The translations under genes and the position numbers were made by a program. A model generated the notes under the pieces. That model did no database searches, was not told the origin of the DNA, and saw only the letters and a list, made by a program, of their open reading frames with translations. A DNA stretch of 35,257 nucleotides from a virus, in the IMG/VR virus record IMGVR_UViG_3300038701_001032, positions 1 through 35,257 of that record. One strand, written 5' to 3'. Shown here one piece after another: positions 2,448-35,133 of this stretch (position 1 is the first letter of the stretch; every line of letters begins with the position of its first letter).

Positions 2448-3026
2448 ATGGCTCAAAACGAATTTAGAGAGATACTTCAACGTCTTTGCAAGACATGGAT
2501 ACCCGGCTCTGTAGTCGGTCAGATTACGGCAGTCGATGGTACAGACACGTGTACGGTAGAGCCAGTAGATGGCGGTGCAACACTTTACAAGGTTCGCCTT
2601 CGTGCTACTATTGATGGCAATGATGAAGGCGTGGTAAGTATTCCAGCTGTTGACAGCTTCGTAATTGTATCGCCCATCAATCACAACGACAATCAACTTT
2701 TTGTGTCTCGGTTCAGCAAGGTCGAAAGCTGGCACGTTAAGACTGAGAACAGTACCAGTTTACAAGTAAACGATGATGGTACTGTATTTCTGAACGGCAA
2801 CAACTTCGGTAGCCTCATTAAGATTGACGACATAGTTGATAGGCTCAATTCTATTGAGGATGCAATAAGCGGACTTGTGGACGACCACAATAGCCATATC
2901 CATGATGTGATTGACCCAGTCTCTGGAACCTTAGTGGCTGACCCGCCAACGGTACCGTCTACGCAAAACGCAGGAACAACTACAGTATCCGCAATCGAAA
3001 ACGACAAAGTTCAACACGGAGGATAA
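2448..3026 (+). CDS. Baseplate spike-like protein (Mu gp45/P2 gpV type), displaced into the early region
   Basis: This 192-residue protein has an OB-fold-like N-terminal part (about 15-90: PGSVVGQITAVDG, a run of short strands, then DSFVIVSPINHNDNQLFVSRF). A short strand-rich section and a helix (about 125-145) follow. The C-terminal region has an HxH pair (SHIHDV) and proline-rich VADPPTVPS. Cell-puncturing spikes of contractile tails have this architecture, with histidines binding iron near the tip. The late baseplate cluster (30356-35076) lacks a spike gene, which supports the assignment. The stop overlaps the transposase start (TAATG at 3024-3028). Placement ahead of the transposase is unusual for a late structural gene. 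Confidence 0.65.
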   Translation: MAQNEFREILQRLCKTWIPGSVVGQITAVDGTDTCTVEPVDGGATLYKVRLRATIDGNDEGVVSIPAVDSFVIVSPINHNDNQLFVSRFSKVESWHVKTENSTSLQVNDDGTVFLNGNNFGSLIKIDDIVDRLNSIEDAISGLVDDHNSHIHDVIDPVSGTLVADPPTVPSTQNAGTTTVSAIENDKVQHGG

Positions 3027-5065
3027 TGCTACAAGTGCAAGGAAATAAGGTTGGAGTTCCGGTTCATTTACTTGTGCCAGATTTTTTTCCATCAGAAAAA
3101 GCTTTGTACCAAAAGCTTTGGCGAGACAAGAAGTTGAACTACGGAATGAAACGCCTGCAACGTGGCTGCTATGGCAATTCTTTGCTTGTAGACTTTGATA
3201 CTCTTGATAAAAAAGTGCAAGAGCAAATTGGCGACCCACGCAAACCAGACCACCTATTAGACAACTATTACGAGGTTGATACCGAGGCCGTGGAGTTCTA
3301 CCACAACTGGCAGTACCCGGATGGCAGCTACCTCAAGCCAGATAGCATTGAGCAGTACATCATCAACGCAAGTGTGATGAAAGCTATTTTCAGACTTCGC
3401 GATGCGCGAATTGCTGAACGACAAAGCAAGAACGGCAGCCTGCAAGGCATCACTCAAACGCTTTGCACAGATGCCAACACATACCAGGAGCACCTGCAAG
3501 CAAAGGCAGGCATGAGACACAAGCTCCCAACCAATGCGCGCAGGTTCAAGCAAGCTATGACAGAATTTGAGCGCATTGGTTTCATCTCACTCATTAAGGA
3601 TGCCAAGGGCAACGCCAAAAAGAACGCTGCCAAGGTAGATGAGCAAGTGCTGCAACTACTCAACGACCTCTTTGCAAGCCAAAGCCACAAGCCAACAGCT
3701 ACAGAAGTTGCTGGTCAGTACGATGCTTTCTTGCGTGGACAGCTAGAAGTGTTCAATGCCGAAACAGGCGAGCAGTACACCACAGATGGTTACGCCAGCA
3801 TTAGCACTAGTACGGTTAAGCGATACCTGACCCAATGGCAGAGCCGTATTGCTACGCACCATGTGCGTAGTGGCGACCGACAGAAGTACATGAACAAGTA
3901 CAGCGTACACCACTCGCTCAAGCAACCAGAGTTTGCGGGCGAGATCATCTCCATTGATGACCGCCAACCACCTTTCGAGTACGAACCAGGCAAGCGTATG
4001 TGGTGGTACTTGGGCGTTGACCTCGGCAGTGAGGCCATTACCACTTGGGTACACGGCAAGAGCAAAGAGGGTATCATCCTCGATTTCTACCAGCAGATGG
4101 TACGAAATTACCACGAGTGGGGAATGCCGCTACCATACGAACTGGAGGCTGAAAGCTCGCTCAACAGTTCATTCAAAGAAACCTTCTTGCGCGAAGGTCA
4201 GATGTTTAGCCGAGTGAGGATTGAAGCCAACAAAGCAAGAGCCAAGCGTATTGAGGCGTACTTCCGCCAATTGCGCTACGGCATAGAAAAGAAGCGCGAA
4301 GGATGGCTTGCGCGTCCGTTTGCTGGCAGCGAAAGCAATCAGCTTGGCGGCACCAAGAAAACCATCATTCCTTATGATGAGCTGGTGCATCAATGTCTGC
4401 TCGACATTATGACGTGGAACAACATGGAGCACTCCAAAATCAAGGGCAAGACCCGTTGGGAAGTGTTCTTGGAGCGTCAGCATCCAGAGTTGAAACCAAT
4501 CAACCTGCGTGCTATTCTGCCAGCGTTGGGCCATAGCACCGCTACTAGCGTAAACGTTGGCATCATCCGCTTCAAGAGCCGCGAGTGGCTGTTAGGTGTA
4601 GACGGACAAGTTGCCACAGGCGATACGCTTATCCGGTTAATGAAGGGAGTGGAAGGCGAGGATATTACCATCCATTGGTTGGATAATACCGATGGCAGCG
4701 TAATGAAAGCCTACATCTACCACAACGAGCGGTATGTGTGCGAGGCGGTGCCGAAACCAGTCTACAGCCGTAGCACTATTGGTCGTACAGATGCAGATGT
4801 GGAAGCACGTGCCATTATGAGTGCCTACGCCAACACCGTTGATGGCTACCGAAAAGAAACCGTGAAAGGCTTGAACAAAGTAGCGGTACTCGATAACCGT
4901 AGCCTGACGCTCAACGATAAGTTTCAGATACCAGGAATGGCCAAGCACCGCCCAGCAGAGCAAGAACCGCAAGAGGCTGAGGTGCTGCCAGAACTGCCCG
5001 AAGAAGAAGACTATTCAACACCCATTCAAACATCATTCAAACAAAGTTTAAAAGATAGATTCTAA
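3026..5065 (+). CDS. MuA-type DDE transposase
   Basis: At 679 residues this is close to MuA (663). The N-terminal 250 residues contain the Mu-type DNA-binding region (FPSEKALYQKLWRDKKLNYG early on). The RNase H-like core follows, with ISIDD at 308-312 giving the first acid (D311), then WWYLGVDLGS. The segment MPLPYELEAESSLN (367-380) aligns without gaps to the MuA segment holding its second Asp, and the residue there is E376. NKARAKRIEAYF supplies the final Glu (E410). A Mu-transposase C-terminal beta-barrel spans about 505-580 (VGIIRFKSREWLLGVDGQ to YVCEAVPKP). The tail is acidic, where MuA contacts MuB and ClpX. It catalyses strand cleavage and transfer during integration and replicative transposition. 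Confidence 0.93.
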   Translation: MLQVQGNKVGVPVHLLVPDFFPSEKALYQKLWRDKKLNYGMKRLQRGCYGNSLLVDFDTLDKKVQEQIGDPRKPDHLLDNYYEVDTEAVEFYHNWQYPDGSYLKPDSIEQYIINASVMKAIFRLRDARIAERQSKNGSLQGITQTLCTDANTYQEHLQAKAGMRHKLPTNARRFKQAMTEFERIGFISLIKDAKGNAKKNAAKVDEQVLQLLNDLFASQSHKPTATEVAGQYDAFLRGQLEVFNAETGEQYTTDGYASISTSTVKRYLTQWQSRIATHHVRSGDRQKYMNKYSVHHSLKQPEFAGEIISIDDRQPPFEYEPGKRMWWYLGVDLGSEAITTWVHGKSKEGIILDFYQQMVRNYHEWGMPLPYELEAESSLNSSFKETFLREGQMFSRVRIEANKARAKRIEAYFRQLRYGIEKKREGWLARPFAGSESNQLGGTKKTIIPYDELVHQCLLDIMTWNNMEHSKIKGKTRWEVFLERQHPELKPINLRAILPALGHSTATSVNVGIIRFKSREWLLGVDGQVATGDTLIRLMKGVEGEDITIHWLDNTDGSVMKAYIYHNERYVCEAVPKPVYSRSTIGRTDADVEARAIMSAYANTVDGYRKETVKGLNKVAVLDNRSLTLNDKFQIPGMAKHRPAEQEPQEAEVLPELPEEEDYSTPIQTSFKQSLKDRF

Positions 5066-5409: not shown

Positions 5410-6378
5410 ATGAATGTAACCAACGATTTCCGAGACAGTGTAATGGATGCCCTGCTCATCCGCAAGGGTAACCACCTTGGCACAGAGAAAAGCTTTGCCA
5501 CCCAATGGCAGATACCACACTCCGTTTGGAGTACGCTTAAGACCATTCGCGCAGAGCGCAAAGAAGGCAAGGATACCAGCTACTTCGGTAAGCTGAAAGA
5601 CCAAGACTGGATTCGCCTTGGCCGCGCAATGGAAGTACTCACCAACCGCAGAAAGTGGAACGTGGTAAAAACAGATGTTTTCCTAACCATCGAAGAGGAT
5701 ATCATCTTCTGTAAGGAGCACAGCAAGGCGCGCATATTCGTTGATGATTGCGCCATTGGAAAAACCTTTACCGCCAAGTACCTGAGCCGCAAGCTTCCTA
5801 ACGTCTATTACGTTGATTGCAGCCAGTGCAAGACCAAGAGCGAGTTCTTACGGCTTATTGCCATGCGCATTGGTGTAGACCACAAAGGCAGGCTAATCGA
5901 AATAACCGAAACCATCAAGTACTGGCTCAATGGAATGGATAAGCCGTTGGTCATTTTAGATGAAGCTGGCGACCTGAACCAAGCCGCATTCCTTGCCATC
6001 AAAGAACTATGGAACGCCACCGAAGGCACCTGCGGATGGTACATGATGGGGGCGGATGGCCTACGCGCTAAAATAGACCGTGGCTACAACAACAAGAAGC
6101 TCGGTTATGCCGAAATCTTTAGCCGCTTCTCAGAGAAGTACAGCAGCGTGGTTCCTAACGGCAAAGACGACAAGCGCGCCTTTTACCGCAAGCTGATTAC
6201 CGATGTGCTGTACGCCAACATGAACGAGAACGAGCGCAGAGAACTCGACCAAATTGTAAAGCGCTGCCTGGTTAACGATAACCGTGGCCGCCTTGGTGGA
6301 TTACGCAGAGCTGAATCGCTACTCATCCTCAACGCCCGACCAAACACAGACCTTTTTTCCGCACCAGCAAGAACCTAA
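5410..6378 (+). CDS. MuB-like AAA+ ATPase, target-DNA activator
   Basis: This 322-residue protein has an N-terminal HTH-like region (about 1-60; KSFATQWQIPHSVWSTL) as in MuB. An ATPase core follows, with a Walker A variant DDCAIGKT (112-119), Walker B PLVILDEAGD (179-188) and a sensor-like WYMMGADGL. MuB binds target DNA, delivers it to the transposase and gives target immunity. Position after the transposase agrees with Mu gene order, apart from the inserted DUF4406 gene. The first Gly of the usual P-loop is absent, as often in MuB and TniB-type ATPases. Confidence 0.88.
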   Translation: MNVTNDFRDSVMDALLIRKGNHLGTEKSFATQWQIPHSVWSTLKTIRAERKEGKDTSYFGKLKDQDWIRLGRAMEVLTNRRKWNVVKTDVFLTIEEDIIFCKEHSKARIFVDDCAIGKTFTAKYLSRKLPNVYYVDCSQCKTKSEFLRLIAMRIGVDHKGRLIEITETIKYWLNGMDKPLVILDEAGDLNQAAFLAIKELWNATEGTCGWYMMGADGLRAKIDRGYNNKKLGYAEIFSRFSEKYSSVVPNGKDDKRAFYRKLITDVLYANMNENERRELDQIVKRCLVNDNRGRLGGLRRAESLLILNARPNTDLFSAPART

Positions 6379-11791: not shown

Positions 11792-12124
11792 ATGAAAAAG
11801 GAACTTAGAGAAAAGGTTTGGAATAAATATGATTGCAAATGTGCCTATTGTGGCGAAGATTTGGAATACAAAAAAATGCAAGTTGACCACATAGAAGCCA
11901 AATACTTAGGTGGAAAAGACGATATTGAAAATTATAACCCAAGTTGCCGACAATGTAATTTCTATAAAGGAACATTTGACATTGAGGGATTTAAAAAGCA
12001 ATTAGCCACAATTACTGAAAGGATTCAAAAACCATTTATAGTAAGACTTGCAATGAAGTATGGTATTATTTCTTTCAAACCTTTTGACGGAAAATTTTAC
12101 TATGAAAAACGAAACGAGCATTAA
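11792..12124 (+). CDS. HNH endonuclease
   Basis: The 110-residue protein has the compact HNH layout: CAYC (17-20), QVDHIEAKYLGGKDD with D32-H33, then NPSCRQCN giving CRQC (52-55) and N56. The two CxxC pairs bind the structural zinc and the His is the catalytic base. The C-terminal half is basic. Codon use is markedly A/T-rich compared with the early operon. HNH genes near terminase often assist packaging, but composition and flanking repeats suggest a moron or mobile cassette here. Confidence 0.85.
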   Translation: MKKELREKVWNKYDCKCAYCGEDLEYKKMQVDHIEAKYLGGKDDIENYNPSCRQCNFYKGTFDIEGFKKQLATITERIQKPFIVRLAMKYGIISFKPFDGKFYYEKRNEH

Positions 12125-12167
12125 GTATAGCCTTTGTTGTGCTTAACGAAGTGACGTTTTAATGAAG

Positions 12168-12231
12168 CACAACGCCTGGCTAAATCTAGCCGTCTGCCGT
12201 AGGCGATGGCATTTAGCCGCTGTTGGAGAAC
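12168..12231 (+). repeat. attC-like hairpin after the HNH gene
   Basis: CAAC (12170-12173) pairs with GTTG (12222-12225), and GGCTAAAT (12178-12185) pairs with ATTTAGCC (12211-12218). Spacers of unequal length (GCCT against GCT) leave an extrahelical base. A small GCC/GGC hairpin sits in the middle. Two short arms, an unpaired base and a terminal loop are the architecture of integron attC sites. The outer boxes do not fit the integron consensus exactly. Confidence 0.45.
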
Positions 12232-12279
12232 GTTTTTATTCTGTCGGTAGTAGTTGTGCGGATAGGCTCATGTGGCTGA

Positions 12280-12510
12280 TTAAATAAATTCTTCTTCAAC
12301 CGTCCAATCTTCACCACGAATTATTTCAATTATCTGTTCGTGAGAATAAACTTTTTCAACTTCAATAGGACATTCTCCAGCCCAAGATAATATGAACTCG
12401 GTTTCATCTACATTACGCCTAGCTGTTTCGCTAGAATCTTCATCGAACAGGCTGAAATCAATTTTGCTTATCCTTTCAATCGGTAAGACTGTGTAGTTTT
12501 TAGAGTCCAT
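12280..12510 (-). CDS. Small acidic hypothetical protein, last gene of head operon
   Basis: The 76-residue protein is acidic (FSLFDEDSSETARRNVDETEF, EDWTVEEEFI) and overlaps the end of the LamG-like gene. It may be a chaperone or capping partner of that protein. No family is recognised. Confidence 0.5.
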   Translation of the reverse strand: MDSKNYTVLPIERISKIDFSLFDEDSSETARRNVDETEFILSWAGECPIEVEKVYSHEQIIEIIRGEDWTVEEEFI

Positions 12511-13210
12511 ATCTATCTTTTATCGCATTGAAATTTTGTAAAACCTCTGCGGCTGATAATGCCTTAGTGTAAATAAGGGTTTGTGAAGCCCCTCCTTCAA
12601 AGTTTGTCGGACTACCTCCGTCAACTCTTCTGCCCACCCTTACCTGTGGTGTGATACCCGAATTTATGTCAATAGTATAGTTAGCCGTGTCAACCTCTAA
12701 GCCGTTAACGTAAAGTTTTATGTTATTAGATGTAAGTGTTTTGTCATACGTAACGGTTGCATTTACCCAATTTCCTATTGTTATTGAACGGGAAACTTCT
12801 GACCAGCTATGGTTATTCATGTAAAAATATATTACGCCAAATCGGGTAAAAAAGTAACTTAAATTATACCCAGAACCAAAACCGTAACAAAACGGCAAAG
12901 ATGCCGAGCCAGATGCTACGTTTATCCATATAGAAAATGTAATAGGAGACGAAAGTGTCGTTGCCCAAGATAGACATTCAGCGTAATCACTAACCCCATC
13001 AAATTCAAGATAACCACCTTCTGCGCTATTGTATGGAACTCCATTGATAAGCGTAGCGTCATTACCTTCTCCTGAAAGGTCTAACCAATTAACTCCGCTA
13101 CCACCGTAACTTGAAGGTTGACCTGCATCCAAATAAAGGATGAGGTCATCAGTAACTATGTTTGGTGCTGATGTTTCTGAGTATCCGTAAAATATTAGTT
13201 TTCTACTCAT
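12500..13210 (-). CDS. LamG/concanavalin-type jelly-roll protein
   Basis: The 236-residue protein has a short N-terminal anchor (about 1-20). A LamG-like domain (about 22-230) follows, with LILYLDAGQPSSY, WLDLSGEGNDATL, LEFDGVSDYAE, FSIWINV, WVNATVTYDK, IKLYVNGLEVD and the closing LSAAEVLQNFNAIKDRYG. Such domains bind carbohydrate or protein surfaces and occur in phage capsid decorations and fibres. It sits at the end of the head operon, next to two other strand-rich proteins, and its start overlaps the previous stop (ATGA). A virion surface role is likely; the ligand is unknown. Confidence 0.75.
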   Translation of the reverse strand: MSRKLIFYGYSETSAPNIVTDDLILYLDAGQPSSYGGSGVNWLDLSGEGNDATLINGVPYNSAEGGYLEFDGVSDYAECLSWATTLSSPITFSIWINVASGSASLPFCYGFGSGYNLSYFFTRFGVIYFYMNNHSWSEVSRSITIGNWVNATVTYDKTLTSNNIKLYVNGLEVDTANYTIDINSGITPQVRVGRRVDGGSPTNFEGGASQTLIYTKALSAAEVLQNFNAIKDRYGL

Positions 13211-30207: not shown

Positions 30208-30359
30208 GAACGTTTTGGAGATTGAGTGTGTTCCCGTTCTTGTTTGTGATGCTTCTGTTGATTGCATTGGCCAAAGTAAAAGGACTGCTAACTGGAAATG
30301 CAGTGATTAATATGAAAGGTTCTTGGTTTGATAATTGGGCTGAGAAGATAGCTGAATGA
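30204..30359 (+). CDS. 51-residue membrane protein
   Basis: The frame starts at ATG 30204 and overlaps the neighbours by four bases on both sides. One transmembrane segment is clear (SVFPFLFVMLLLIALAKV, residues about 8-25). A short exposed tail follows (KGSWFDNWAEKIAE). It may be an accessory lysis or exclusion protein in the baseplate module. Confidence 0.55.
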   Translation: MRTFWRLSVFPFLFVMLLLIALAKVKGLLTGNAVINMKGSWFDNWAEKIAE

Positions 30360-31339
30360 AGTCTATTGTAGCACATAGCGGTTGCGAGGTAACGATTGGA
30401 AGTTTGACTTTCAATTACGTGCATGCCATTGACATTAAAAGCAGTTGGAAAACGCTAAATGATGTCTGCACTATTCAGCTACCGAACCAAAAGGATATGC
30501 TTGCTGCCATCAATAGCATGGAGGCAGGCGCATCGGTTACGGTAAAGCTTGGGTATGATGGTGACCTTTATACAGAGTTTGAAGGCTATGTAAAGAGCGT
30601 TAGTGCCAACCATCCGTACACGGTTACTTGCTGGGATGGTATGTGGAACCTCGCGCAGCAAGAGGTTAGCATGAGCTGGGAAAGTACCACGCTGAAGGAG
30701 GTAGTGCAGTACTTGGTGGGTGACGCAATCGTTACAGATGTGCCAGATGTAACACTTTCGCCATTTTCTCTTGATAGGAAAAATGTACCCACGAAGGCTC
30801 AGGCATTACAGAAGCTGAAGGATGAGTATGGCTTGGTGGCTTATTTCCGTGGTACACAGCTCTACGTTGGGTTGGCTTATTATGAGACTGGTCTTGGTGA
30901 GTACGTGTATCACTTTGAGAAGAATGTAGCCAAGAAGAGCAACAACCTGAAGTTTAAGCGCGCTGAGGATGTGAAGGTGAAGGTGAAGGGCATCTCCATT
31001 CTGCCAGACAATACCAAGGTTGAGGTAAATGCTGGAGACAGCGATGGCGATTTGCGCACGCTGCACTTTTACGACCTGACCGAAGCGGAGCTAAAGCAAC
31101 AGGTGGAGGATAAGGTGAACTTGATGAAGTACAGCGGCTACCGTGGCTCATTTATGAGTAAAGGCGTGCCGCGCCCGGTGCATGGCGGAACCGCTAAGCT
31201 GTTGAGTGCTATTTACCCAGAGCGCAATGGCTCTTATTTGATTGATGAGGTGCACACCACGTTTAATGGGCAGAGTGGATTCAGTAGAAAAGTAACGCTT
31301 GGCCGTTTGGCCGATGCGAGTTTGATAAGCGCTAACTGA
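30356..31339 (+). CDS. Baseplate hub, late control D-like (Mu gp44/P2 gpD type)
   Basis: The 327-residue protein has a beta-rich N-terminus (ASVTVKLGYDGDLYTEFEGYVKSVSANHPYTVTCWD), the hub middle LKEVVQYLVGD and KAQALQKLKDEYGLVAYFRGTQLYVGLAY, and a closing part with YSGYRGSFMSKGVPRPVHGG. These are hallmarks of the gpD/gp27-type hub trimers that hold the spike. It overlaps the next gene by one base. Confidence 0.8.
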   Translation: MKSIVAHSGCEVTIGSLTFNYVHAIDIKSSWKTLNDVCTIQLPNQKDMLAAINSMEAGASVTVKLGYDGDLYTEFEGYVKSVSANHPYTVTCWDGMWNLAQQEVSMSWESTTLKEVVQYLVGDAIVTDVPDVTLSPFSLDRKNVPTKAQALQKLKDEYGLVAYFRGTQLYVGLAYYETGLGEYVYHFEKNVAKKSNNLKFKRAEDVKVKVKGISILPDNTKVEVNAGDSDGDLRTLHFYDLTEAELKQQVEDKVNLMKYSGYRGSFMSKGVPRPVHGGTAKLLSAIYPERNGSYLIDEVHTTFNGQSGFSRKVTLGRLADASLISAN

Positions 31340-31647
31340 TGGCACGAGAGCAGATAGACATATTACTCAATGACAACTTAGAGGTGCAGTTCTCCGGTGG
31401 CGACCTGTCTCTTGGAGAAAGCACGGAGCGGCACCAGCAGTTGTTGCTGTTGTATCGCCCTGGTCAGATACCATTTTTCCCGTTGGCTGGTGTAGGTATT
31501 GGTGACCAGTATCAGAACGATGCGGGTGAGCGCGAAGTGGCCCGGTTGATACAGCGTGAGTTTACGGCTGATGGTTTGACCTTTAATATACTCAGAGTGC
31601 GCAACCTTGCCACGCAGGATGTACAGATAAACGCTTATTACAGATGA
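31339..31647 (+). CDS. GPW/gp25-type baseplate wedge protein
   Basis: The 102-residue protein is of family length and has the GPW/gp25-type order: GGDLSLGESTERHQQLLLLYRPGQIPFFPLAGVGI, then AGEREVARLIQREFTADGLTF. It forms part of the inner wedge and initiates sheath. The next gene overlaps its stop by four bases. Confidence 0.7.
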   Translation: MAREQIDILLNDNLEVQFSGGDLSLGESTERHQQLLLLYRPGQIPFFPLAGVGIGDQYQNDAGEREVARLIQREFTADGLTFNILRVRNLATQDVQINAYYR

Positions 31648-32837
31648 GGGTAACGGTACAACAAGGGCAGAATATTTATGACATCGCAAAGATGTACTAT
31701 GGTGGCGTGGAGGGCGTACAGCTGCTGATTGCTGATAATCCTGAGACTATTACGGACATCCGCGATAGCATTGCTCCTGGCACGGTACTGAACATTGATA
31801 GCGACCCTGTGAATAGCGTGGTGGTGCGTCAGCTACAGAGCCGTGATGAGCGCATTCCATTAAATGAAAAGACGGTATTTGCCAACGATGATAATTACGA
31901 GTTTGATGTTTGGGAAAACATCAGCACGATACCCCTTGGCCGACCTGTAAACTGCGTGACCATAGCGAGTAATGGAGATGTGTGGGTTGGAACCAACCTA
32001 AGTGGCGTGTACAGACGCAAGTATGGCCAGACTTCTTGGATTAACTACACCACCAGTGGTTTAGGGAGTTTGGCATCAAACAGCATCCGTTCCATTATTG
32101 AAGCATCTGGTGGTGTTATATATGCTGCAACTGGTGCTGGCGTTGCGCGCTTCAACGGCTTCATGTGGAACGCTAACTACACCACTAGTGATGGCTTACC
32201 TAGCAATGACTGCCAGTGGTTGGGCGTGTATGATGGCGACTTCGTGGTTGGTACAGACACGGGCGTGAGCTTCACGGCTGACTGGAGCACCTATACGAAC
32301 TACGACAGCACCGATGCAGAATTGAATAGCGATGATGTGCGCCACGGCTTTACTGATGCGAATGGCGACCTATGGTTGGCCACGGATGCAGGTCTGAGCG
32401 TGTGGCGCTTGGCTACATCTACCGTTGACCTATATGACAACGCAGGTGGTGAGCTGCCAAGTGATGATGTGGTACATCTGTTTGGTTACAATGGCATTAT
32501 TTACGTGGCCACGGCTGCTGATGGGCTTGTAATCTATGATGGCAGCAACTGGATTACGCACGATACGAGCGGCCCTAATGCACCTAATGATGAGCCAACC
32601 TTTTTGGTTGCCAATAGCTTGGGTGTGATTTACGCTGGGTTTGAGAATACAAGCAACGGTGTGTTGAGCATTGTGCGCAGGCGCGATAGTTGGAGCGAAG
32701 AGGCTAGCAGCGCCAATAGCGATATGCCGGACGACACGGTGAAGTGCATGGCTATTGATTACGAAGACAATTTATGGATAGGCACCGCAGCGAGCGGCCT
32801 TTTTTACTATAACAAGAACATTCTGATAAATGGCTAG
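31644..32837 (+). CDS. LysM (gpX-like) fused to seven-bladed beta-propeller
   Basis: The 397-residue protein begins with a LysM-like domain (about 1-55: VTVQQGQNIYDIAKMYYGGVEG, LLIADNPE, IAPGTVLNI), the gpX-type baseplate module. From about 90 seven repeats of a G..WVGT..G-type motif can be read: NGDVWVGTNLSGV, GGVIYAATGAGV, DGDFVVGTDTGV, NGDLWLATDAGL, NGIIYVATAADGL, LGVIYAGFENTSNGV and EDNLWIGTAASGL. These match the propeller repeats of two-component sensor kinases. Seven blades suggest a complete closed propeller. It may decorate the baseplate or bind the host receptor. Confidence 0.75.
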   Translation: MRVTVQQGQNIYDIAKMYYGGVEGVQLLIADNPETITDIRDSIAPGTVLNIDSDPVNSVVVRQLQSRDERIPLNEKTVFANDDNYEFDVWENISTIPLGRPVNCVTIASNGDVWVGTNLSGVYRRKYGQTSWINYTTSGLGSLASNSIRSIIEASGGVIYAATGAGVARFNGFMWNANYTTSDGLPSNDCQWLGVYDGDFVVGTDTGVSFTADWSTYTNYDSTDAELNSDDVRHGFTDANGDLWLATDAGLSVWRLATSTVDLYDNAGGELPSDDVVHLFGYNGIIYVATAADGLVIYDGSNWITHDTSGPNAPNDEPTFLVANSLGVIYAGFENTSNGVLSIVRRRDSWSEEASSANSDMPDDTVKCMAIDYEDNLWIGTAASGLFYYNKNILING

Positions 32838-33717
32838 ATCGGTCGATACGATATTCCAAGGCATGCTGCAATACGTTGCAGGAAGTGCCACGCTCAGCAG
32901 CTTGCTCAGCACTACCATCAGCACGGAGCAAGAGTTGCTTGATAAACTGAGCAGCACGAGCCGTGTTGCCATTTGGGTGCTCATGTTCTACGTGGTGGCC
33001 AAGGCTATCAATACTTTCGAGCAGCTGATGGATGTGTTCCGCGCAGAGATAGATGAGACAATAGCCAATAACGTGTATGGCACAGAGCGATGGTGGGTGA
33101 CGTGGTTGAAGCTATTCCAATATGGCGACACACTCACCTTTGTGAATGACCAGCCAGGCTATGCTACGGTGACGCCAGCTAACCGCATCATCACGGCTGC
33201 CGCCTGTGTACCTGGTAGCAATGGTGCCATAACGCTGAAGACCGCCAAGACAAGTGGTGGCGCATTGGTTGCTCTGAGTGGCGCTGAGGTCACCGCTGCG
33301 CAAGCTTACGTTAATCTTATTACTCCGGCAGGTGTTTACCCAACGGTCACCACAGCAGATGCCGATGAGCTGAAGCTGACGGCAACTGTCTATGTAGACC
33401 CTCAAGTAATCAACTTGGCGGATGGTAGCTTGCTCAGCGATTCGAGCGTATATCCGGTTGAAGATGCTATCAACGCTTACTTGAGCACCTTCAGCAATGT
33501 CAATTTCAATGGCCAGATAAATCTGAGCCATGTGAAGGATGCCGTCCAGGCCGTAGCAGGGGTCAATGACTTCGTAATTAGCACTGCTGAGGTGGATGCA
33601 GGAAGCGGTTACACCCCCATTGGTAGATTGTATCAATGCAGCTCTGGTTATATTATTGAGGGTACTGGAGCTGGTAACGCATTCAGCGACACCTTCACAT
33701 ACATTGCAGGTAACTGA
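32830..33717 (+). CDS. Baseplate J-like protein (Mu gp47)
   Basis: The 295-residue protein has TISTEQELLDKLSSTSRVAIWVLMFYVVAKAINTFEQLMDVFRAEIDETIANN, then strand-rich DADELKLTATVYVDPQVI and DAVQAVAGVNDFVISTAEV, the gpJ layout. It is shorter than Mu gp47 (381), with the reduced middle part. It forms the outer wedge ring. The next gene starts at its last base. Confidence 0.7.
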   Translation: MARSVDTIFQGMLQYVAGSATLSSLLSTTISTEQELLDKLSSTSRVAIWVLMFYVVAKAINTFEQLMDVFRAEIDETIANNVYGTERWWVTWLKLFQYGDTLTFVNDQPGYATVTPANRIITAAACVPGSNGAITLKTAKTSGGALVALSGAEVTAAQAYVNLITPAGVYPTVTTADADELKLTATVYVDPQVINLADGSLLSDSSVYPVEDAINAYLSTFSNVNFNGQINLSHVKDAVQAVAGVNDFVISTAEVDAGSGYTPIGRLYQCSSGYIIEGTGAGNAFSDTFTYIAGN

Positions 33718-34244
33718 TGACGAGCTATATCATCAATATCATCCAGCTTATTCATCGCACGCTGTCGTACGACCTGCGCAAGTCGGTGAATGTCTCGTTT
33801 ATCTATGCGCTTAATCGGCCTTTAAACAGCGTTGCAATTGCGTTTGAAGACTTTACGCGCCAGCGCAAGCGCAGCGCCAAATACAATGTCCAGAAGATGG
33901 TTTTGGAGCGTATGCTCAACCTCTACTACTACGGGCAGGACAAGTGGGCCACGGCATCCGACCCAACGGCATCTGGAGGTATCTATATTGAGCAAGCCAT
34001 TGGCAACTTGGACTTCGCGTACAGCTGGACGAATACCGAAGGCACACAGCAAGATTACAGTTGGCGTAACTCGGAGACTCCAGCTTCGCAAAGTTACAGT
34101 TGGACGGATGCTGAGGTGACTAACTTGATTTTCGATTTCAAGGTTAAAATTCCAGCAGCTTTTACGTACAACGAAAATGAGGTCAGAGGCTTGGTAGATC
34201 GATACAAGCTGGCCGGCAAGAGTTACACCATAGAAACATACTAA
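33717..34244 (+). CDS. Baseplate I/gp48-like protein with YSW repeats
   Basis: This 175-residue protein directly follows J and precedes the fibre, the place of gpI/gp48. The N-terminus is helical (HRTLSYDLRKSVNVSFIYAL, then FEDFTRQRKRSAKYNVQKMVLERMLN). Residues about 100-145 contain three copies of YSW at 12- to 13-residue spacing (YSWTNTEGTQQD, YSWRNSETPASQS, YSWTDAEVTN). The assignment rests on position. Confidence 0.55.
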   Translation: MTSYIINIIQLIHRTLSYDLRKSVNVSFIYALNRPLNSVAIAFEDFTRQRKRSAKYNVQKMVLERMLNLYYYGQDKWATASDPTASGGIYIEQAIGNLDFAYSWTNTEGTQQDYSWRNSETPASQSYSWTDAEVTNLIFDFKVKIPAAFTYNENEVRGLVDRYKLAGKSYTIETY

Positions 34245-34245
34245 G

Positions 34246-35076
34246 ATGAACATTACAAGCTTTACGTTAACAGGCGGCAGACCCATAAAAGAGGACAGCT
34301 ACGCACACATGCAAAGTGGCATAATGGAGGCTTTTGCCAACATGCTAAAGGCCACTGGAACATCAAGGCCAGAAGGTGTTATCCTTTTTGGGTGCGAGAT
34401 AACGTTAACTACGACAGCTGTTTCTAACGATACTGCGGAGATAACTGCCGGAGCGGTTTACATTGATGGCGAGATATACACGGTGGATGCTGCAAGTGGA
34501 ATACAGCGCGGTGCTGGCGATACCTTCGTGTTTAATGTTGTTTCGACCACCGCATCTCCATCGCTTACCTATTTCGATGCGACTACGCAGAATCCGCATC
34601 TAGTAAGAAAGGCGGAATTGACTTTCGTGGCAAGTGGAGGCGCAAGTGCTTACATGCCTTATGACGCAGACACGTGGCAAGAACGGCTGCATGGTACGCG
34701 CAAGTTTTGGGGAGCAACGGTGGTGGATGATGATGGCGCTGGAGGTAGCTTAACGCTCAATTCAGATGCAGTGTATTATCAGCATAACTATGCCAACAAT
34801 ACACTGCATTTGGAAGTGAGAATGAGTGTTACAGTCGTCAATGCTGACACTGCTTACATCTTGCTACAGTTGCCAACCGACCGTGATGGTGATCAGTTGA
34901 AGACACCCTTAGCCGCAACTGTGTCAGGCATTGGTGTAGAGGGAGGCAATGTTGTGCTTGTTGAGAATCACACAGACAGGTCGTACCTCAAGATACGTAA
35001 GATTGATGGTGCCGACTTTGCGGTTGGTTCTTTGGGGGCAATAAACTTCAATCTTGATTTGATGACGACTATTTGA
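34246..35076 (+). CDS. Tail fibre-like or baseplate appendage protein
   Basis: The 276-residue protein begins ITSFTLTGGRPIKEDSYAHMQSGIMEAFANMLKATG, a baseplate-attachment-like segment. It continues with strand-rich sequence (CEITLTTTAVSNDTAEITAGAVYIDGEIYTVDA) and a late LHLEVRMSVTVVNADTAYILLQL. As last structural gene it is probably the receptor-contacting fibre or its anchor. No inversion region or second fibre cassette is found. Confidence 0.6.
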   Translation: MNITSFTLTGGRPIKEDSYAHMQSGIMEAFANMLKATGTSRPEGVILFGCEITLTTTAVSNDTAEITAGAVYIDGEIYTVDAASGIQRGAGDTFVFNVVSTTASPSLTYFDATTQNPHLVRKAELTFVASGGASAYMPYDADTWQERLHGTRKFWGATVVDDDGAGGSLTLNSDAVYYQHNYANNTLHLEVRMSVTVVNADTAYILLQLPTDRDGDQLKTPLAATVSGIGVEGGNVVLVENHTDRSYLKIRKIDGADFAVGSLGAINFNLDLMTTI

Positions 35077-35097
35077 GATTGTTTAAAGTGTTATTTA

Positions 35098-35133
35098 AAG
35101 CAGCTTCAAACACTATTTGAAGCTGCTTTTTTT
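35098..35133 (+). terminator. Strong rho-independent terminator of the late operon
   Basis: AGCAGCTTCAAA (35099-35110) pairs perfectly with TTTGAAGCTGCT (35116-35127) around a 5-base loop, followed by T residues to 35133. It lies 22 bases after the last late gene. Confidence 0.93.

Follow-up and report, generated by a model that had tools for sequence, protein, structure and literature searches.

A LysM baseplate protein joined to a seven-bladed Reg_prop-type propeller in a Mu-like phage related to the Winoviridae

Introduction

Propellers on phage baseplate proteins are already known. The C-terminal domain of PhiKZ gp131 has seven blades, lies at the baseplate periphery and is suspected of receptor binding, its function being unproven (PMC4901313, in excerpt), Kelch propellers occur in phage CBB (PMC5259590, in excerpt), and eCIS fibres bear propeller lectins (PMC12923769, in excerpt). 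Among bacterial proteins, PorZ binds anionic LPS (PMC8545088, in excerpt). In the baseplate of phage A-1(L), the LysM protein gp16 joins the hub and the wedges, and its C-terminal tail either enters the hub or forms a pair with the tube initiator (PMC10966104, in excerpt). The literature compared also took in excerpts of PMC10811340 and PMC10367356, and among open-licence PMC papers none was found on a LysM-propeller baseplate fusion.

Here we analyse the entire IMG/VR virus record IMGVR_UViG_3300038701_001032 (35,257 bases, class linear; referred to as the window), in which a propeller stands on an unusual carrier, a LysM connector. We put at roughly 0.55 the probability that this protein is a small LysM baseplate connector, seated between hub and wedge, whose C-terminal seven-bladed propeller acts as a tethered binder of a receptor or glycan.

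Results and discussion

The phage and its baseplate operon

In addition to the genes listed in Table 1, the window encodes a Mu-type portal and Mu F as one fused gene on the minus strand, together with terminase, protease, capsid, sheath and tape-measure genes. The hub and J proteins are closest to members of the Winoviridae: the named phages among 18 matches to the hub protein infect Winogradskyella and Flavobacterium, and are Winoviridae in the records opened, and those among 18 matches to the J protein are Winogradskyella and Flavobacterium phages and one Bacteroides phage. The terminase is closer to Mu-like phages of Porphyromonas and Bacteroides, and the family placement is therefore mixed. 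Judged by its proteins, the phage is Mu-like and Winoviridae-related, of mixed placement. A Bacteroidota host, as supposed in the initial annotation, is indicated by these relatives and by the T9SS sorting domain (Pfam 4.7e-8, NCBIfam 2.9e-9) of the secreted protein encoded at 551-1273 on the minus strand. This gene adjoins a repressor-like gene (1270-1677, identified by eye), and its product is possibly a surface protein made by the lysogen.

Table 1. Positions of the fusion gene, its parts and other features of the window. Residue numbers refer to the fusion protein.
Feature	Position	Strand	Basis
Spike-like baseplate gene	2448..3026	+	family model 3.6e-41
Mu-like transposase	3026-5065		
MuB-like gene	5410-6378		
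Baseplate hub (gpD-like)	30356..31339	+	phrog_4930 2.8e-62
gp25-like wedge/sheath-initiator gene	31339..31647	+	related-loci family model 2.6e-23; no match in Pfam or PHROGs
LysM-propeller fusion gene, 397 aa	31644..32837	+	ORF; overlaps with both neighbours
LysM baseplate domain, residues 1-75	31644..31868	+	family model 48.6 bits
Linker, residues 76-84	31869..31895	+	no in-frame start codon
Seven-bladed Reg_prop-type beta-propeller, residues 85-397	31896..32834	+	Pfam, PDB, patterns, blade model
N-terminal strand, residues 85-98	31896..31937	+	resemblance to blade outer strands; inference
J-like baseplate wedge protein (named by position)	32830..33717	+	phrog_38413 9.6e-36; phrog_1608 tail 2.8e-5; family model
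I-like wedge protein (named by position)	33717..34244	+	family model 1.8e-38
'fib276', conserved last baseplate/fibre protein	34246..35076	+	family model 7e-32; weak DUF4815
14-bp perfect inverted repeat, then T run	35097..35129	.	inverted-repeat search

Hub, gp25-like and J-like genes surround the fusion gene, and its assignment to a baseplate cluster thus stands. We name the gene before it gp25-like by its position, and 'fib276' is a family name coined in this analysis. The inverted repeat after 'fib276' is likely the terminator of the late operon, and from 35076 to the record end there is no ORF longer than 62 aa. Inverted-repeat and motif searches of the record did not locate the phage's true right end, so that a separate fibre gene may follow beyond the record; a transposase site at this end, considered at first, was dropped when the motif search gave no match. 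At the left end, positions 34-51 (GTATTACCATAATTTGCC) and 83-100 (GTTTGACCATAATTGGCC) are similar repeats, 83% alike, and are possibly transposase sites. The spike-like gene occurs in 160 of 167 hub loci, mostly directly behind the hub; here it is not behind the hub, and its stop codon overlaps the transposase start (TAATG), which reflects either relocation or an assembly join.

LysM and propeller are encoded by one intact gene

The joining of the two domains in a single gene, proposed in the initial annotation, was confirmed. The frame opens with ATG at 31644 and runs without internal stops to a stop codon ending at 32837, and the gene shares 4 nt with the gp25-like gene before it and 8 nt with the J-like gene after it. 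We considered whether an error of sequencing or assembly had run two genes together, since the fusion comes from a single metagenomic record and separate genes lie between LysM and J in 35 of 96 relatives. Across the domain junction (codons 62-104), though, there is no in-frame ATG, GTG or TTG from which a second gene could start, the strand pattern is conserved right past the linker, the overlaps tie the gene to both neighbours, and both domains have the codon usage of the phage (propeller 0.174, LysM 0.159, 11 other genes -0.028 to 0.176). An artefact is therefore highly improbable. A test of the propeller as a compositional island was likewise negative, the propeller matching the phage. With no start codon at the junction and phage-like codon usage on either side of it, the fusion looks real, and old rather than recent.

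The propeller has seven blade registers

Pfam Reg_prop matched the protein at 1.4e-14 with 52.7 bits, above its cut-off of 20.4, and when stretches were taken singly, one of four exceeded the cut-off. The best solved relative of the propeller is PDB 4a2l, a two-component sensor (5.4e-17). A single-blade model, built from nine bacterial proteins only, scored 75.0 bits in total, compared with 10.1 bits for the best of 500 shuffles; it recovered six of the seven blades in order, with blade 3 at -0.4 bits and blade 4 at 3.3 bits, and missed blade 6. Strand motifs were found by pattern at residues 108, 154, 195, 238, 281 and 324 (n=6), and a seventh register, NLWIGT (residues 376-381), came from Pfam and from alignment with bacterial propellers. 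Alignment with seven such propellers gave seven registers. Blades 3 and 6 were accepted because of the even spacing of the registers and the alignment over the whole domain. The earlier count of seven blades thus holds, as six pattern motifs and a seventh from Pfam and alignment, although the blade model sees blades 3 and 4 weakly and misses blade 6.

By eye, the blades end in an outer strand of the form 'W..Y.TS..GLP', which the last blade does not have, and residues 85-98 (YEFDVWENISTIPL) look like such a blade-ending strand. On these two grounds the N-terminal strand, just after the linker, probably closes the seventh blade in a 'velcro' closure. AlphaFold2 gave a mean pLDDT of 36.4 from the single sequence and 33.0 from a three-row alignment, low values that we attribute to the lack of an adequate alignment.

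Some of the blades are degenerate, as might be expected if the propeller were a functionless remnant, or else an enzyme. This is very unlikely given an open frame of 397 codons, the phage-like codon usage and the absence of any convincing enzyme family in Pfam, PHROGs or NCBIfam.

The closest relatives of the propeller are surface and secreted proteins

The initial annotation had suggested capture of the propeller from a host sensor gene, and this was not supported. Pfam and NCBIfam gave no kinase, Y_Y_Y or transmembrane match in the fusion protein, which does not qualify as a hybrid sensor. When loci sampled were ranked by best domain, the top ten relatives of the propeller were not kinase-like and the first kinase-like one came eleventh, as judged by simple motif labels; several of the top ten have a T9SS-like sorting domain at the C-terminus. 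The closest relatives sampled are thus non-kinase, secreted and often T9SS-sorted proteins, and together with the phage-like codon usage they lend no support to a sensor gene as donor. Single-propeller proteins of lipoprotein-like or T9SS-like type were present in the sampled genomes (L226, L225 and L227). The propeller is, by sequence kinship, akin to these surface and secreted propellers of Bacteroidota, the Reg_prop fold being common to sensors as well.

No sorting domain was matched by NCBIfam in the fusion protein itself. The NCBIfam model for PorZ (NF052228), whose structure we take to be 5m11, scored 47.6 bits against a cut-off of 260, which places the phage protein outside that family. 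A near donor gene was not found in two partly overlapping samples of 395 Bacteroidota-side genomes, and with best matches at just about 24-36% identity no donor can be named. As the codon usage of the propeller is that of the phage, any capture would be old: the propeller would have been acquired long enough ago to take on the phage's usage.

The LysM domain is related to a baseplate connector

Residues 1-75, termed gpX-like in the initial annotation, scored 48.6 bits against a LysM family model that was based on 106 homologues of related phages, with the window sequence left out, whereas 500 shuffles of residues 1-85 gave at most 9.5 bits. The general Pfam LysM model was weak (E=0.0083, under its cut-off). 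A profile of the family (an alignment of 13 rows, one of them the window) matched PDB 8kea_J, 'baseplate gp16', at E=4.3e-4, the best of 10 chains listed; going by this name and by PMC10966104 (in excerpt), we infer that 8kea_J is gp16 of Anabaena phage A-1(L). Both kinship to a solved connector and the surrounding hub, gp25-like and J-like genes place the domain among LysM baseplate connectors.

This kinship also bears on where the propeller would lie. The inward direction of the C-terminus of A-1(L) gp16 speaks against an exposed propeller here: with the same topology, the propeller would begin within the baseplate and could have a structural role. It could then be a reinforcement or collar between hub and wedge in place of the gp16-type tail, an idea favoured by the match to 'baseplate gp16', with its inward tail in A-1(L) (PMC10966104, in excerpt), and by the general use of propellers as protein-interaction domains. 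Relatives manage with a short tail, however, so that a collar of 35 kDa answers no evident need, and what stands at this place in the operon varies and is often adhesin-like. We regard a structural role as rather doubtful, and prefer that of a tethered binder.

The fusion is found in one record

The survey started from relatives of the hub gene and took in 166 loci (13 + 153), which deduplication by hub sequence reduced to 141 plus the window. A LysM gene is present in 120 of the 141 non-redundant loci and encodes 74-238 aa. The longer LysM proteins mostly have tandem LysM domains (two or three in L088, L105, L060, L065, L172, L182, L106 and L152). Other C-terminal sequence follows LysM in L165 (188 aa), where Pfam gives no more than a hint of the F5/F8 type (E=0.054), and in L059 (187 aa, truncated at the end of the contig), with no Pfam match. 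A propeller was found on none of the 120 LysM genes, and the blade model (E 1e-3) matched no searched-strand ORF of the 166 loci, compared with 6.3e-22 for the window. Prophage loci were recovered from 395 Bacteroidota-side genomes in seven cases by their hub, and all seven LysM genes (96-189 aa) are without blades.

Wider searches gave a similar picture. A single-protein scan of IMG/VR returned no second fusion, and three propeller scans returned none, one (L203) and none, all of these resting on short patterns that do not exhaust the database. The one hit, L203:3170-5659, is an 829-aa tail protein with propeller-like repeats and another propeller type; it belongs to another phage, in which its gene comes directly behind one that is tape-measure-like. 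tblastn of GenBank phages gave three weak matches (E 0.008-0.8), and the one opened (H1/L003) is a bacterial contig that encodes a sensor kinase. A further tblastn of phage records, with a consensus-like propeller of bacteria as query, matched 17 records, known from that match alone, and a plasmid search found one Rhodothermus record matching the propeller part only. A single metagenomic record is thus known to carry the fusion, and the combination is new to the records searched.

The place after LysM is variable and often adhesin-like

The usual gene order in these loci is hub, spike, gp25, LysM, J, I, 'fib276'. Among 121 non-redundant LysM loci, the window included, J comes next after LysM in 61, ORFs stand between the two in 35, J precedes LysM in 7 and is not reached in 18. 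At least one separate gene, in some cases adhesin-like, therefore intervenes in 35 of the 96 loci in which J follows LysM. A Pfam scan covered 82 of the 93 ORFs of 130 aa or more that intervene or follow, drawn from 127 ORFs with four odd loci excluded; it gave collagen (3), GDSL lipase (3), LamG lectin (2) and Ig-like (2) matches, single matches to K1-lyase C, phage fibre repeats and an NHL propeller, and also lysis genes and others. Beyond 'fib276' there are 70 ORFs of 200 aa or more, and a scan of 51 of them gave two GDSL lipases and one match each to collagen, NHL and CBM. In L061 an NHL-type propeller gene (12092-12910, at the contig end) lies two genes past LysM, a different propeller near the same place.

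The C-terminal tails of the LysM proteins vary with what follows. J comes directly after LysM in 30 of 36 loci with a 'GIGYWxIxxDFxV'-type tail, whereas with other tails a gene intervenes in 46 of 77 (J next/intervening gene 30/6 vs 31/46; Fisher p=1.7e-5, for classes drawn up post hoc and with relatedness ignored). These classes come from L004-L202 and include L058, L077, L132 and L137, where LysM is upstream of the hub. The pattern hints that the tails may be docking peptides for separate proteins.

From this association it could be argued that the propeller is an adaptor that binds another phage protein, for instance a fibre. Yet the tail classes were set after the sequences had been viewed, relatedness aside, and in the window no separate fibre gene stands beside the fusion gene; we consider an adaptor decidedly unlikely. 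More specific, and held only tentatively, is the idea of the LysM C-terminus as a general port for adhesins throughout this large group of phages, at which relatives would dock separate adhesins by a short tail peptide, L059 and L165 would fuse other sequence, and the present phage would carry its only receptor-binding domain, an LPS-binding propeller. Such a propeller, from the surface repertoire of Bacteroidota, would bind LPS glycans of the host as PorZ does.

A proposed tethered receptor- or glycan-binding propeller

For the reading that we prefer, a LysM connector with a tethered binder, the LysM part would anchor up to six copies in the baseplate at the hub-wedge interface, and the propeller would project and attach to the Bacteroidota host through a surface glycan or another receptor. 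By fusion it occupies the place where many relatives have separate genes, and it would replace or supplement a separate fibre. A binding role is suggested indirectly, by analogy with the often adhesin-like genes at this place, with other phage propellers and with the LPS-binding PorZ. The phage has other candidate surface binders in the 'fib276' protein and in a LamG/concanavalin-like lectin protein (12500-13210, minus strand, 2e-16), which ends the minus-strand head genes, has a low GC3 (0.295) and is a possible second surface binder.

Little is known in general about the receptor-binding proteins that phages of Bacteroidota use. If the preferred reading is right, a receptor-binding domain sits on a conserved inward part of the baseplate not regarded as an adhesin carrier before, which would mark a place in many related genomes for seeking adhesins and make a compact domain available for glycan-binding tests.

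Comparison with known systems

As a LysM baseplate connector the protein resembles A-1(L) gp16, T4 gp53 and Milano BW4, which in the excerpts at hand are short, or fused to other baseplate proteins, never to a propeller. Its blades are those of the Bacteroidota hybrid two-component sensors (4a2l, 3v9f, 3ott), solved sequence relatives with Reg_prop blades; sensors of the BT4663 type, as excerpted, have two propellers with Y_Y_Y and kinase parts, whereas the phage protein has one propeller and none of the rest. PorZ of Porphyromonas gingivalis is a Reg_prop relative (8.8e-13) with features of its own, two propellers and a sorting domain, and the phage protein falls far under its family cut-off. 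The secreted or lipoprotein-type Bacteroidota proteins L226, L225 and L227 share a single Reg_prop propeller and a similar size, but have export signals (by eye) and no LysM, and L225 and L227 have a T9SS-like end (by eye).

Among phages, the receptor-binding protein of Staphylococcus phage phi11 likewise places a propeller in a baseplate protein (PMC4901313, in excerpt), although it has five blades on a trimeric stalked fibre, in a siphophage of a Gram-positive host. PhiKZ is a giant phage of Pseudomonas, and the excerpts of PMC4901313 do not mention a LysM connector for gp131. The C-terminal domain of gp131 (PDB 4GBF) and the propeller described here are nevertheless alike, by description alone, as seven-bladed baseplate propellers of contractile tails.
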